A stretch of DNA of 42,683 nucleotides from positions 1 to 42,683 of the IMG/VR virus record IMGVR_UViG_3300032213_000855; one strand, written 5' to 3'. The notes under the pieces were generated by a model. That model made no database searches, was not told the origin of the DNA, and saw nothing but the letters and a program-made list of their open reading frames with translations. A program made the translations under genes and the position numbers. The DNA is from a virus. Each line of letters starts with the position of its first letter. Positions within the stretch are counted from its first letter, which is position 1. Of the stretch, positions 28,511-33,678 are shown one piece after another.

Positions 28511-30127
28511 TTATACCTCGCTTCTAATGCGCTCTGATGCGAACGCTTCGTCTATGATTAGCATTAAATTCGGATACTGAATCTCATTATCCGTTACGAA
28601 CTTCACGAACCTTGACCAAGCAAATGGCGTGTGCTTAGCGACTATTTTCATGTTGCGTGTGTATTCACAAACAGCGTGAACGAACTCGATATTGGATAGC
28701 AAGCGTGCCTTGCGTAGCGAACCCTTGAATATCCGTATCTCGTAAGTGTGGTCGTTATACACATTGACTACCTCGTAACGCCCGTTACGTTGGTCGTTGT
28801 GTAATACCTTCCTGAGTATCTGACCCTTGTCTCCGAATGAAGCGTAATCGTTAGCCTTGCGACCTGCGATACGCTCTACTTGGTATTGGTTATCGTAGAT
28901 GAACTTGGTGAAGCGCATCTTGTGTGATACTTCTGCTTGGTATCCCGAAGGCGCATCGAAAGCCTTGCGTGATATGTGAACGTGGAAGCCACAGTTGCTA
29001 TTGTTCCACGATACGAAGTTACCGGATACGAGTGTGCTAAGGAATGACCAATCGAAATTGGTGTGGTATTCCTCTAGTGTGTGAGGGTGTGTAACTACCT
29101 CGAAGCCAGCCTCAAGCGAGCCGTCATACTTCATATACACACGCTCACGTAACTTGCCCTCGATGAGTGAGGCGATGTAGTTGTTATCCGCATCGTTCCC
29201 GTCTGATTCCTCGACTTCTAACTCGAAGCCTAAGTGATACTTACCAGCCCCAAAGAATTGCGCTCTAGGCTTGTATGTATATGAGTAGATAGTCTCGCCA
29301 TCGTTGCGATAGCACTCGTGGTCGTTGCCTTCTGCGTAATGATAATCGCACTCAGGACACTCGATAGGCTGACGATAGCAGTAATCACACAGATTACGTT
29401 CACGAGCATCTGAGTAAGTCAGACTATCTACGTGGTAATACTCGTTACATCTCTCGCAATCTGCGTATTCCTCGTCTAGCAACTTCACTTCAGCGCAAGT
29501 GTTACAATGCGCTTGTCTTTCGATTTGGCGAAAGGTTACGCGACCCTCACCTGCCCATTGGAAGTTGCCTTCACACACTTCGCAACGCATGATACATCTG
29601 GCGTGTGCGACTATCGTCTCGCCAAAAATATCTTTGGCTTGCCTCTCGTGGTCGGCGTGTATGTAATCACCGCAGTAACACATGAGTGGTTCAGGTTGCG
29701 TGGCGAGTGGCATATCCTCGCTAGTGAACATCTTGTATGAGGTGAATGATGATGCGTATTCTGCGTTGTTATACATGAATTGGCTAACCTCATCACGCTG
29801 ACATGAACGCATCTGAGCCTTGCGAACCACGCAGTTGTAGCAGAACTTGTAGTCTAGATTCTGCTCCCACGCTTCTGCGTGGATGTCTGTCTCGATACGC
29901 CGGTCTTGTGTGTAGTAATACACACGACCATAAGTGCTACACGATGAGCAGGTATTCCACTCTCCGTGTGGGTGATTGTAGAAGGTGATGCGAGCATAGG
30001 CTACGGCTACAAGGTTATCCATGTATTCCGCGCCCTCTGCTGTGATGCGTGCCTTCATTACTTCCACACGAGCATCTAGCCCGTCTGGAATCCACAAGGA
30101 TTCTTGTGGCGTTGCGTTATCTGTCAT
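28511..30127 (-). CDS. Amidoligase with N-terminal multi-zinc-finger region
   Basis: A 538-residue protein from ATG 30127 (TAATG junction). Residues ~35-270 hold a long string of Cys/His pairs such as CSSCSTYG, CYNCVV, CYCGDYIH, CEVCEGNF, CNTCAEV, CERCNEYYH, CDYCYRQ and CPECDYH, i.e. several zinc fingers. The C-terminal half is an amidoligase of the glutamine-synthetase-like fold: YHLGFELEVE (~298), GFHVHIS (~380) and YEIRIFKGSL (~462) supply the usual acidic metal-binding, His and Arg residues. The family forms amide bonds between a carboxylate and an amine using ATP. The adjacent class II amidotransferase suggests that ammonia or an amine is supplied. The target is unknown. Confidence 0.85.
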   Translation of the reverse strand: MTDNATPQESLWIPDGLDARVEVMKARITAEGAEYMDNLVAVAYARITFYNHPHGEWNTCSSCSTYGRVYYYTQDRRIETDIHAEAWEQNLDYKFCYNCVVRKAQMRSCQRDEVSQFMYNNAEYASSFTSYKMFTSEDMPLATQPEPLMCYCGDYIHADHERQAKDIFGETIVAHARCIMRCEVCEGNFQWAGEGRVTFRQIERQAHCNTCAEVKLLDEEYADCERCNEYYHVDSLTYSDARERNLCDYCYRQPIECPECDYHYAEGNDHECYRNDGETIYSYTYKPRAQFFGAGKYHLGFELEVEESDGNDADNNYIASLIEGKLRERVYMKYDGSLEAGFEVVTHPHTLEEYHTNFDWSFLSTLVSGNFVSWNNSNCGFHVHISRKAFDAPSGYQAEVSHKMRFTKFIYDNQYQVERIAGRKANDYASFGDKGQILRKVLHNDQRNGRYEVVNVYNDHTYEIRIFKGSLRKARLLSNIEFVHAVCEYTRNMKIVAKHTPFAWSRFVKFVTDNEIQYPNLMLIIDEAFASERIRSEV

Positions 30128-30279
30128 TATCCTGCCTTCCGTGTGAGTGAACGAGCCACAATCTTGTGGAACTCGCGTGCTTCCTGCCAACCATCACGAT
30201 TACCCATCTGATACGCTGAGTAACCTACTACGAGTGCTAGAATCAAGTCAATCAGGAGATTGAACCCGTTATAGAACAT
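30127..30279 (-). CDS. Small membrane protein, first gene of leftward operon, 50 aa
   Basis: ATG at 30279 is chosen; the upstream in-frame GTG at 30348 would lie inside the leader hairpin. Residues ~5-24 form a hydrophobic helix (GFNLLIDLILALVVGYSAYQ) followed by a charged helix with Arg and Lys. It is therefore a single-span protein with a cytoplasmic basic tail. Its stop overlaps the amidoligase start (TAATG), which suggests a link, for example membrane targeting of the enzyme. GGAAGGAAG lies ~11 bases upstream. Confidence 0.65.
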   Translation of the reverse strand: MFYNGFNLLIDLILALVVGYSAYQMGNRDGWQEAREFHKIVARSLTRKAG

Positions 30280-30308
30280 CACGATAGATACTTCCTTCCG
30301 TAGAAATG

Positions 30309-30357
30309 AAAAACTCCCCTGAGTGTCTAGAAAGGTCTTAACACACACTCAGGAGAG
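30309..30357 (-). terminator. Attenuator-like hairpin in the leader of the amidoligase operon
   Basis: On the minus strand a 13-bp stem (30345-30357 with 30314-30326; one G-T pair) closes an 18-base loop and is followed by TTTTT (30313-30309). It lies between the leftward promoter (~30382-30410) and the first gene (30279). An intrinsic terminator at this place would cut most transcripts short unless an antiterminator acts. A second small hairpin, ACCTC-TTTT-GAGGT (30360-30373), precedes it in the leader. Confidence 0.7.
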
Positions 30358-30381
30358 CAACCTCTTTTGAGGTCAAGGAGA

Positions 30382-30414
30382 ACCCTACCATAGTCCAATT
30401 TTGAACTCAAATTG
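30382..30414 (-). promoter_or_regulatory. Leftward promoter of amidoligase operon with overlapping inverted repeat
   Basis: Minus strand: -35 TTGAGT (30410-30405), 17-base spacer, -10 TAGGGT (30387-30382) preceded by TGG as extended -10. An inverted repeat CAATTT/AAATTG (30396-30414) overlaps the -35 and spacer, as expected for an operator. The -10 block ATGGTAGG is nearly the same as in the divergent rightward promoter at 30870-30900 and similar to the early promoter at 19247. Confidence 0.6.
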
Positions 30415-30494
30415 ACCTTAAAAAGCCCTTAGCAGAAGAAAAGAAAATACGTGGGTGCGTGGGTAATAGGTTCGTTGGTTAGTTCGTTCGTATG

Positions 30495-30592
30495 ACAGCC
30501 ATGTATGCCACGCGTGTGCGTCAGGGTGTGCGCTCGAGCATACACGTGTGTGCGTGCCGGTCAGGACAGCGATGTATCTCACGCGTGTGCGT
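30495..30592 (+). repeat. Pair of 27-base imperfect direct repeats
   Basis: Copy 1 at 30495-30521 and copy 2 at 30566-30592 share the frame ACAGC-ATGTAT-CACGCGTGTGCGT with three mismatches. The start-to-start spacing is 71 bases. Both contain ACGCGTG, a word that recurs in this part of the genome. They lie 80-180 bases from the DnaA boxes and look like iterons or binding sites for a phage initiator. Confidence 0.6.
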
Positions 30593-30671
30593 GCGTATCG
30601 TGCGTGCGTGCGTGTGCTTGCCTGGGCCTGGAATTTTTTTTCTACCCTGGGTCGCGTGGATCCGCGTAAAT

Positions 30672-30692
30672 TGTGGATAAAGTTGTGGATAA
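30672..30692 (-). promoter_or_regulatory. Two tandem DnaA boxes
   Basis: TGTGGATAA occurs at 30672-30680 and again at 30684-30692. Its reverse complement, TTATCCACA, is the perfect consensus DnaA box. The copies are 12 bases apart in the same orientation. Two exact 9-mers this close are unlikely by chance. With the flanking repeats they support host DnaA-dependent initiation of phage replication. Confidence 0.75.
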
Positions 30693-30869
30693 AAATGGAT
30701 CCGCGCACGCATGGCCGGACAGCAATCTAAGTTCTACACGTGTGTTCGTATATGCCCCGAACGGGCAGGTTTTCGCACGTTTCGATTCCCCTTCATGGCA
30801 AAAGTTCCCCAACACAAACCCCAAAAGATGCCCCAACACTCCCGACTTTTACGCTCAAAATAGGCTAAT

Positions 30870-30925
30870 TTGACACTTTCCCTTTTGGTCATGGTAGGAT
30901 TTTCTTAGTGGAAATTCCTCCACTC
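30870..30925 (+). promoter_or_regulatory. Rightward promoter and leader hairpin for the 145-aa gene
   Basis: A perfect -35 TTGACA (30870-30875), 19-base spacer, and -10 TAGGAT (30895-30900) with TGG extended -10. The leader has a small hairpin, AGTGGA-AATTCC-TCCACT (30907-30924), then AAAGG seven bases before ATG 30943. The core block ATGGTAGGAT mirrors the leftward promoter. This is the strongest consensus promoter that I see in the window. Confidence 0.7.
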
Positions 30926-30942
30926 AAACGAAAGGTCTAAAA

Positions 30943-31380
30943 ATGAACAAGAACGAAATCGCAAATATCGTGGCTCTATTCCCATTCGAGTCAGATACCG
31001 CTAAATCACTCGTGAACCGCCTAGAGTCAGCACTCACAAAAGACGGAACACCCTCAGCACGTCTCCGCATGGCATCATCATCACTTCTCGCGCTATCTGA
31101 CAAAGTTGATTCAGAGAGCCAAGATTCAGGAATGCTCATAGCACTCGGCTCTTTCCTTCTAATCGGCTCAGAAATCGCGAAGGAACAAGCACCAAAAGCC
31201 AGCACCACACAAGCACCAAAAGCACCAAAAGCCACACGCGAAAAATGGTTCGATGCGGATTCACCAGAAGCGAAAGCCATCACCACACCAAAGCCACGCG
31301 CAAAGAAAAACGCGCCAGCACCAGTAATCGCGGATGAAATTCTCGCGCTACTCGTTCAAGCGATAAACGCGGGCAAGTAG
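30943..31380 (+). CDS. Hypothetical protein, 145 aa, transcribed alone
   Basis: A protein with no recognised family. Residues 1-75 are Ser/Leu/Ala-rich helices (VALFPFESDTAKSLVNRLES, then a GSFLLIGSEIA helix). The middle ~75-120 is a Lys/Pro/Ala/Thr-rich linker with repeats of APKA. The C-terminal ~25 residues form a last helix. It has its own strong promoter, leader hairpin and strong terminator, so it is a separate transcription unit next to the putative origin. That position would suit an early regulator, an initiator or a small terminase, none of which can be shown from sequence. Confidence 0.75.
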   Translation: MNKNEIANIVALFPFESDTAKSLVNRLESALTKDGTPSARLRMASSSLLALSDKVDSESQDSGMLIALGSFLLIGSEIAKEQAPKASTTQAPKAPKATREKWFDADSPEAKAITTPKPRAKKNAPAPVIADEILALLVQAINAGK

Positions 31381-31494: not shown

Positions 31495-31534
31495 ACCGGT
31501 GGTCGCAAAAAGCGCGACCCCGGTGCTTATTTTT
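31495..31534 (+). terminator. Strong intrinsic terminator
   Basis: ACCGG and GGTCGC (31495-31506, one T bulge) pair with GCGACC and CCGGT (31514-31524), 11 pairs, loop AAAAAGC, followed by GC and a TTATTTTT tail (to 31534). A GAAAAA run lies on the left, giving some bidirectional character. It ends the 145-residue gene unit and insulates it from the TerL leader. Confidence 0.8.
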
Positions 31535-31806
31535 CTAACAACCCCCTATATACCACTATCACTTTATATTTTTTTACCATCCTTTTGCCATATAACTAGA
31601 CATTTCCGGGTATAAATGTATAAGTTTCAGGTTATAGCGTTCGCTTTACCCTATTTGAACGGGTTAGTATATATGTAGTGTAAAACGAACGGAAGTCCCT
31701 AGTGAGTTTTACCTGGCTAGTAGCAAGCCTTAATGGCTTGCCTCGAGGGGGTAGTGAGGCGCTCTAGAGAGCGCCGAACGAAGGGGGATAAACGGGGTGG
31801 TTTTAT
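31535..31806 (+). other. Structured non-coding leader before TerL; possible packaging site
   Basis: No gene is supported in these 272 bases. The left half is AT-rich with a T7 tract. The right half holds three perfect inverted repeats: GTAAAAC (31680-31686)/GTTTTAC (31706-31712), GCAAGCC-TTAAT-GGCTTGC (31723-31741) and GGCGCTCT-AG-AGAGCGCC (31758-31775). GGGGTGG six bases before ATG 31807 is the likely ribosome-binding site. The structures may form a regulated 5' leader of the late transcript, or include the recognition site for DNA packaging, which often lies next to terminase genes. Confidence 0.5.
31645..31673 (+). promoter_or_regulatory. Candidate late promoter upstream of TerL
   Basis: TTTACC (31645-31650), a 17-base spacer and TATATA (31668-31673) give a loose promoter match. 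It differs from the ATGG-TA class promoters elsewhere in the genome, which would fit reading by the phage sigma-like factor. Support is weak, because the match to consensus is only four of six in each hexamer. Confidence 0.3.
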
Positions 31807-33678
31807 ATGGGTGCTAAAGCGGGTGTTGAACACCACAGTGTTATTGCGCTAAGGGAAGCAAAGGCTAAAGTTCTGTCCTTTGTTGCCCAAGGATTATCTA
31901 TCCAAGATGCCATTATCAAGGCTGACAGAAAGCCTGATGTAATGAAGGACTGGAAGAAAGACCTAAAATTCATCAAGGAACTTGAGAAGGCCAAAGAGAC
32001 TGGCAACCAAGTTATGGATATGGTCACAGGTGATGCCAAGTATAAGATTGGCTTTGCTGAGTTCTCCAAGGAGTTCCTAGACTCACCTATCTTCCCTCAT
32101 CACCAGAACTGGATTGACATCCTTGAGGGCAACGAGCCATCTTGGCTCCACGACTCTATGGTCTATGAGAAGGCTTCTTCTAAACGCCTCCTAGTCAATG
32201 TGCCTCCTGAGCACGCTAAGTCTACAGTTATCACTGTGAACTATTGCGTCTATCGGATTGCCATGAATCCCAATGTCAAAATTACTATTGTCTCTAAAAC
32301 TCAAGAGCGTGCCAAGGAGTATCTCTACTCCATCAAGCAACGCCTGAGTCACGAACGCTGGGCTAAGATGCAGGCTGTCTATGGCTCCGCCGGTGGCTGG
32401 AAGGAAGACGCTGACTCTTGGAAGGCTGAGAGAATCTACATCTCTCGCGACTCTACTGAAAAGGACCCTACGGTCCAAGCCCTAGGTATCGGTGGTCAAA
32501 TCACCGGTGCTCGTTCAGACTTGATTATCCTTGATGACGTTGTGACTACCTCCAACGCTCATGAATGGGAGAAGCAACTCCTATGGCTCCAGCGAGATGT
32601 TATCACTCGTCTGGGTGATGCTGGTAAGTTGCTTATTGTGGGGACTCGTATTGCTGCTAATGACCTCTACCGAGAACTACGTCAACCTGAGCACTGGTCT
32701 TCTGGTAAGACTCCCTTTACATACATGCTGATGCCAGCAGTATTAGAAATTTATGAGAAGCCTGAAGACTGGGTTACTCTATGGCCTAAGTCCCATATAC
32801 CTTGGGAGGGCAACGAAGATGAAATTCAGCCAGATGAGAATGGACTCTACCCCAAGTGGGATGGTCCCGCCCTCTTTCGCAGACGCTCTGAAGTCTCTGC
32901 CTCTGCTTGGGCGCTAGTTTATCAGCAACAAGATGTGCAGGAAGATTCTATCTTCTCACCTCTATGTGTGCAAGGCTCCATTAATGGTATGCGAAAGCGT
33001 GGTCCATTAAAGCCAGGTGCTCCTGGTCATCCTGATGAAGTTCGCTCAGGCTACACCATCATGGGTCTAGACCCTGCTATGACAGGTAATACTGCAGCAG
33101 TGATTATGACTGTAGATAGAATTACTCGTAAGCGTTACATCCTTGACGTTGAGAATATGAAAGACCCTACGCCTCAGAAGATTCAACACTTGATTGAAGA
33201 CTGGGCTAGGAAGTATCGACCTAATGAACTTAGAATTGAAACTAACGCTCATCAGAAGGCTTATGCCCTTGATGATATCTTAAGAACTTTCCTCGCTTCA
33301 AATGGTATTCGCTTCTCTAGTCAGTTCACTGGCAAGAATAAATGGGATACTGGTTTTGGTGTGGCAGCGATGTCTGGACTATTCGGGACTGCTCGTAACA
33401 ATACCCACCAAGATGATAACTTAATAGAATTACCTTCTCAAGATGGCTCAGAAGGAATCAAGGCTCTAATCCAGCAATTGATTACTTGGAGACCTGACAC
33501 TAAGGGTAAGACTGACTGCGTAATGGCTCTATGGTTCTGCGAACTAAGAGCACGCGAGATAGTAAACAATAGCAAGATGAATCAAACTCACCTGTCAAAC
33601 AAGTGGGCTACACCAAGACAATTACAGTATCGCGGGTCCATTAACCTTAATGACTACGAGATGGAATATCAAGAATAG
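31807..33678 (+). CDS. terL: Terminase large subunit with N-terminal HTH-like region
   Basis: A 623-residue packaging motor. Residues ~15-60 (VLSFVAQGLSIQDAIIKADR and the next helix) look like a helix-turn-helix, as in small terminase subunits. The ATPase follows: Walker A-like LVNVPPEHAKST (~129-140), Walker B LIILDDVV (~239-246), and GKLLIVGTR. The C-terminal nuclease has MGLDPAMTG (Asp), ELRIETNAHQKA (Glu) and DCVMALWFCE (Asp), the RNase H-like metal triad. No separate small terminase gene was recognised, so this protein may carry both functions. The gene opens the late block after a structured leader. Confidence 0.92.
   Translation: MGAKAGVEHHSVIALREAKAKVLSFVAQGLSIQDAIIKADRKPDVMKDWKKDLKFIKELEKAKETGNQVMDMVTGDAKYKIGFAEFSKEFLDSPIFPHHQNWIDILEGNEPSWLHDSMVYEKASSKRLLVNVPPEHAKSTVITVNYCVYRIAMNPNVKITIVSKTQERAKEYLYSIKQRLSHERWAKMQAVYGSAGGWKEDADSWKAERIYISRDSTEKDPTVQALGIGGQITGARSDLIILDDVVTTSNAHEWEKQLLWLQRDVITRLGDAGKLLIVGTRIAANDLYRELRQPEHWSSGKTPFTYMLMPAVLEIYEKPEDWVTLWPKSHIPWEGNEDEIQPDENGLYPKWDGPALFRRRSEVSASAWALVYQQQDVQEDSIFSPLCVQGSINGMRKRGPLKPGAPGHPDEVRSGYTIMGLDPAMTGNTAAVIMTVDRITRKRYILDVENMKDPTPQKIQHLIEDWARKYRPNELRIETNAHQKAYALDDILRTFLASNGIRFSSQFTGKNKWDTGFGVAAMSGLFGTARNNTHQDDNLIELPSQDGSEGIKALIQQLITWRPDTKGKTDCVMALWFCELRAREIVNNSKMNQTHLSNKWATPRQLQYRGSINLNDYEMEYQE

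Follow-up and report, generated by a model that had tools for sequence, protein, structure and literature searches.

A pair of exact DnaA boxes lies between two divergent genes on a phage contig of 42,683 nucleotides, the whole stretch of DNA analysed here and hereafter called the window. We tentatively read the pair as a binding site for host DnaA that may serve as an accessory regulatory cassette in a control region rather than as a self-sufficient origin of replication. This is the reading we prefer, at a little below even chances, on the strength of sequence comparisons. The evidence weighed for it comprises the rarity of the pair in simulated DNA, its match to host-type genomes, its recurrence upstream of the terminase large subunit gene (TerL) in related phages, and a precedent in phage lambda.

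The boxes are within an intergenic region that has a minus-strand ORF (28511-30190), with a weak match to amidoligases, on one side and a plus-strand ORF (30943-31380) on the other. The relevant features are as follows.

30191-30942, no strand: intergenic control region between divergent genes; same layout in relatives L003, L006, L011, L014 and L075
30494-30521, plus strand: copy 1 of a conserved 28-nt repeat (GACAGCNATGTATNNCACGCGTGTGCGT), of which eight close relatives each have two copies
30565-30592, plus strand: copy 2 of the repeat, 89% identical to copy 1
30634-30641, plus strand: T8 tract, within a segment unique to the window
30657-30666, plus strand: left TGGATCCGCG flank, none seen in relatives
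30672-30680, minus strand: DnaA box 1, exact match to TTATCCACA
30684-30692, minus strand: DnaA box 2, exact match to TTATCCACA, in a 12-nt period with box 1
30696-30705, plus strand: right TGGATCCGCG flank, none seen in relatives
30718-30745, plus strand: degenerate third repeat copy (61%), placed by the alignment opposite copy 2 of the relatives
30943-31380, plus strand: conserved 145-aa ORF with 35-47% identical homologues in relatives
31807-33678, plus strand: TerL, our anchor when comparing relatives

A sequence-only reading had described this locus as a candidate DnaA-dependent origin, with two exact consensus boxes 12 bases apart, framing direct repeats and a T8 tract, all in an intergenic region. 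Each of these elements is present, the 12 bases being the period from start to start, with 3 nt between the boxes. TerL starts 1.1 kb downstream of the pair. The 145-aa ORF had no match in a family search and is a possible small terminase. An open frame spans both contig ends, which makes a circular or circularly permuted contig probable.

Single boxes carry no meaning in this DNA, since the loose pattern TTWTNCACA occurs at chance level (five in the window versus 4.9 expected), and we discarded single loose boxes as a signal. The pair consists of two close TTWTNCACA matches in a short stretch and exceeds chance expectation. Simulated windows (n = 200) held 0.4 exact boxes each, a loose pair occurred in 0.5% of them, and an exact pair within 60 bp occurred in none. 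Duplicating a single 12-mer is enough to produce two perfect boxes, and the two box units are indeed 12-mers that are 92% identical. This similarity, the chance-level frequency of loose boxes and the lack of boxes in close relatives would all fit a duplicated 12-mer that merely happened to match the DnaA consensus. We nevertheless consider such an accident highly improbable, given the simulations and the same arrangement at related places in host-type genomes and distant relatives.

The box is also the one expected from the presumed host. The window TerL is 58% identical at the amino acid level to that of Planktophila phage E7, and the window encodes a WhiB-like protein and a sigma factor; these genes place the phage in the E7/F5 family of freshwater actinophages (Nanopelagicales/G2). 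Phages E7 and F5 were isolated on 'Ca. Nanopelagicales' (PMC10202952), and the window phage presumably infects a Nanopelagicales bacterium as well. The TerL relatives in bacterial genomes, on four contigs of Streptomyces/Lentzea and on a single MAG contig with a beta-proteobacterium label, pointed to no direct host. The MAG contig (L377) carries a TerL that is 68% identical to that of the L148-type phage and is probably a misbinned phage contig.

We compared the boxes with those of 14 host-type genomes of the class Actinomycetes (1.16-1.5 Mb, low GC, with dnaA regions of 40-49% GC), whose size, GC content and class suggest that they are Nanopelagicales. The predominant box of these dnaA regions is TTATCCACA, which accounts for 38 of 56 TTDTNCACA sites. 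Three of the 14 (L384, L385 and L393) carry a tandem TTATCCACA pair with a 12-nt period directly before the dnaA ATG. Under the presumptive host assignment, the phage box is therefore the host's own box.

The pair is not conserved among close relatives. Eight phages whose TerL is 82-84% identical to that of the window (L003, L004, L006, L008, L011, L013, L014 and L075) share the intergenic region, in which each has a repeat resembling GACAGCGATGTATGTAGCACGTGTGCGC twice. The alignment places the box segment in the window alone, opposite a gap in all eight; neither DnaA boxes nor TGGATCCGCG flanks nor the T8 tract were found in their shared region. The 28-nt repeats are therefore conserved, whereas the DnaA boxes are lineage-specific. 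The window phage probably picked up the pair recently, as an insertion, although the alignment alone fits either gain or loss. It is this insertion relative to the eight relatives that suggests an accessory role. Within the window's own TerL clade, TTATCCACA was found in 0 of 60 dereplicated upstream regions, which gives no sign of conservation for the window's copy and counts against our preferred reading. Close relatives of the minus-strand gene in IMG/VR amounted to one locus, on a contig that ends where the region would begin. The eight relatives instead have TCGGACA-type repeats slightly downstream; in L003, L006, L011, L013 and L014 such repeated motifs were noted near the position of the window's box segment. 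Streptomyces phage Manuel has similar motifs (AAATCGGACAT) within its terminal repeat.

The two 27-base iteron-like repeats of the sequence-only reading are real and kept across close relatives, with a length of 28 nt and a weaker third copy. Their likeness to iterons did not hold. Iteron origins have several phased direct repeats of 17-22 bp and a cognate Rep gene; here, two to three copies of 28 nt lie 44-153 bp apart, at spacings of 71 and 153 nt, and no Rep-like protein was found among the phage proteins scanned. The repeats are thus conserved, yet are not classical iterons. An exact search of IMG/VR with the window's 28-nt repeat pattern returned no match.

Divergent promoters, also proposed from sequence alone, are plausible by eye on both sides. 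One candidate is TTGACA-19-TAGGAT, ending at 30900, and its mirror candidate is ATGGTAGGGTTCTC on the minus strand at about 30378-30391. Neither was reported by the consensus scan, however, and the sigma-70 and terminator scans gave no signal above shuffled sequences. No Rfam match reached the gathering score in the window or the region. With about 180 bp between the pair and the closer of these putative promoters, simple occlusion of the polymerase is unlikely, a point against the regulatory reading.

We next considered whether the pair could be the phage origin itself. Host DnaA would then open the DNA at the boxes, the phage helicase and primase would start forks and the host polymerase would be used. 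The boxes adjoin repeats inside an intergenic region, as this would suggest, and the gene content is compatible with it: the scanned proteins include a DnaB-like helicase, a primase encoded by two separate ORFs, a Cas4-like nuclease and a resolvase, and none was recognised as a polymerase, an initiator or DnaA. The lack of a recognised polymerase or initiator indicates that the phage needs host help. Arrays in distant relatives, moreover, hold as many as nine boxes in mixed orientation and lie near an AT-rich stretch that is conserved. We still regard an origin at the window's pair as unlikely. The GC skew does not turn near 30.6 kb, its extremes being at 26.1 kb (26,118) and 10.9 kb (about 10,890), although skew follows gene direction in this genome and is a weak test of origin. 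There is no AT-rich unwinding element beside the boxes: AT content is 39% at 30501-30600 (61% GC), 51% at 30601-30700 and 44% at 30701-30800. The region also has no DnaA-trio adjoining the boxes, even though the trio TACTACTAC was found in most host-type dnaA regions, and the strong boxes number only two. Finally, similar relatives and the isolated phage E7 lack the boxes and must replicate without them. Of the original proposal, the candidate host-DnaA sites remain credible, given the host consensus and spacing and the recurrence upstream of TerL, while the origin role is poorly supported. The two outcomes that the sequence-only reading had itself named as refuting an origin were both seen, one in the skew and one in the close relatives.

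That recurrence was established by retrieving the loci of relatives on TerL similarity alone and dereplicating their upstream regions. Clusters of 2-9 DnaA boxes occur repeatedly upstream of TerL in distant relatives, and three patterns were seen across clades. In a clade whose TerL is about 47% identical to that of the window, TTATCCACA was present in 22 of 52 upstream regions, whereas its 1680 anagrams averaged 0.48. Across 167 kb of TerL genes and the DNA downstream of them in this clade, it did not occur. Among the 27,352 9-mers of the upstream regions TTATCCACA ranked 44th, other conserved motifs being commoner. In a second clade, only a few members carry arrays, with a maximum of nine boxes (L343). 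The window's own clade, as described above, shows the third pattern.

A separate scan of IMG/VR looked for the tandem pattern independently of TerL. Its listing is a sample, in which 11 of at least 117 loci belong to this TerL family. In all 11 of these among the matches listed, the tandem pair is at most 510 bp upstream of TerL, whereas a permuted control pattern found TerL-family phages in 0 of 42 cases. The commonest arrangement in these phages is two boxes on the same strand with 12-nt spacing. In several phages of the T196 clade, 10-12 nt separate the pair from the start codon that follows it, which belongs either to TerL or to a small gene upstream. Host-type genomes carry their pair at a similar place in the dnaA leader, and the arrangement looks like an operator. 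Tandem boxes likewise abut the start codon of TerL or a small upstream gene in L234, L242, L254, L265 and L218. A FastTree phylogeny of TerL with 151 sequences, of which 38 have clusters, gave at least 14 changes in box presence, a rough count because the set takes in truncated loci only where boxes were seen.

Larger arrays of four to nine boxes in mixed orientation are found upstream of TerL in L343, L332, L313 (about 3.2 kb upstream) and L154, and these are more origin-like than the window's pair. Near phage clusters, a TACTACTA/TAGTAGTA trio was found in three loci only, at -105 in both L343 and L332 and at -420 in L295, and in none of them beside the boxes.

The placement of these clusters also bears on whether the pair is a decoy. 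Such a site would titrate or redirect host DnaA and slow initiation of the host chromosome, much like datA, with no effect in cis on the phage. Perfect boxes are predicted to be of the high-affinity type, the number of sites would rise with the many phage genomes present late in infection, and L343 has up to nine boxes. A decoy could work from anywhere in the genome, whereas the clusters are strongly restricted to the DNA upstream of TerL, and we consider a decoy improbable.

The DNA upstream of TerL carries signs of genome ends as well, with two conserved elements downstream of the control region.

31516-31530, plus strand: conserved element GACCCCGGTGCTTAT (GACCCC...TTAT/TTAAT), with a related motif in phage Manuel and in the overlaps of near-full-length contigs; probable signal for genome ends or packaging
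31656-31677, plus strand: conserved promoter-like motif TGAACGGGTTAGTATATATGTA, upstream of TerL

Streptomyces phage Manuel, which has a related TerL, possesses a 276-bp direct terminal repeat that ends about 385 bp before TerL and contains GGACCCCAGGGTTGTTAACG; a motif related to GACCCCGGTGCTTAT is near the boundary of this repeat. In relatives of the window phage, the GACCCCGGTGCTTAT-like element is as a rule about 110-530 bp before TerL. Three near-full-length contigs overlap at their ends, by 123 bp (exact, G008), 126 bp (identical, G004) and 116 bp (94.8%, G002), and the 1 kb upstream of TerL has an excess of contig ends (91, compared to about 8 per 500 bp farther out). These comparisons suggest that the genome ends or packaging site are probably near 31.5 kb. 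The identical terminal overlaps may instead be assembly overlap, and strain variation may break contigs in this zone.

The region could accordingly be read as mainly a packaging or genome-end locus, with the repeats as part of it and the boxes as a neutral or hitch-hiking insertion. Manuel's terminal repeat, the overlaps of the three relatives in this zone and the excess of contig ends favour this reading, which does not account for the repeated appearance of exact DnaA boxes in several lineages when permuted 9-mers seldom recur. As the window's boxes are also 0.8 kb from the likely end element, we find it distinctly unlikely. The leader of TerL (31629-31806) is conserved and consists of TGAACGGGTTAGTATATATGTA followed by hairpins; for 12 of the 17 predicted pairs, both partners vary among 24 relatives. 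It has no Rfam match and is a candidate structured leader RNA.

We therefore return to the regulatory cassette. In this reading, host DnaA would bind both boxes side by side, and bound DnaA would modulate the firing of the flanking divergent genes and/or the timing of phage replication or the late programme. DnaA action at lambda pR/pO and at host dnaA would be the model parallels. Because the window's pair is in a divergent control region and not in an operator-like position, the regulatory effect there is something we infer, as we do DnaA binding at the pair and the identity of the host.

A broader and more speculative proposal, fairly unlikely in our estimate, is that a family of freshwater actinophages repeatedly places the host's tandem dnaA operator before the terminase or late operon, or in a control region, which would tie packaging, late expression or replication to free host DnaA. 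The window alone is a modest find, and the recurrence across the family is more interesting than its own pair. The prey of these phages are among the most abundant freshwater bacteria, and if the proposal is true, a recurrent DnaA site beside the terminase gene couples the phage programme to the replication state of the host. The open-licence literature on DnaA boxes with phage terminases held nothing about this phage family.

Known systems resemble the window in part. The dnaA leader/oriC of small, low-GC Actinomycetes has the TTATCCACA consensus and the 12-nt tandem pair in common with it. Between dnaA and dnaN the host region has further boxes, and the TACTACTAC trio adjoins an AT-rich stretch in most host-type genomes; the phage region has none of these. 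Planktophila phages E7 and F5 (OX376640 and OX376641) share the TerL family, the WhiB-like protein and the sigma factor with the window, but the genome of E7 contains no DnaA-box cluster. Other freshwater phages, including L196, L234, L242 and L223, share the consensus, the 12-nt spacing and the neighbourhood upstream of TerL. Their pairs have the opposite orientation and adjoin a start codon or the end element, whereas that of the window is 1.1 kb from TerL in a divergent intergenic region. In phage lambda, DnaA boxes are found downstream of pO, and activation of the lambda origin is stimulated by DnaA (PMC3985674). Although lambda has its own initiator (O) and nearby iterons, none of which were recognised in the window, and the two are not homologous, lambda pR/pO has host DnaA sites near promoters in the control region of a tailed phage, a setting that the predicted sites and putative promoters of the window resemble.
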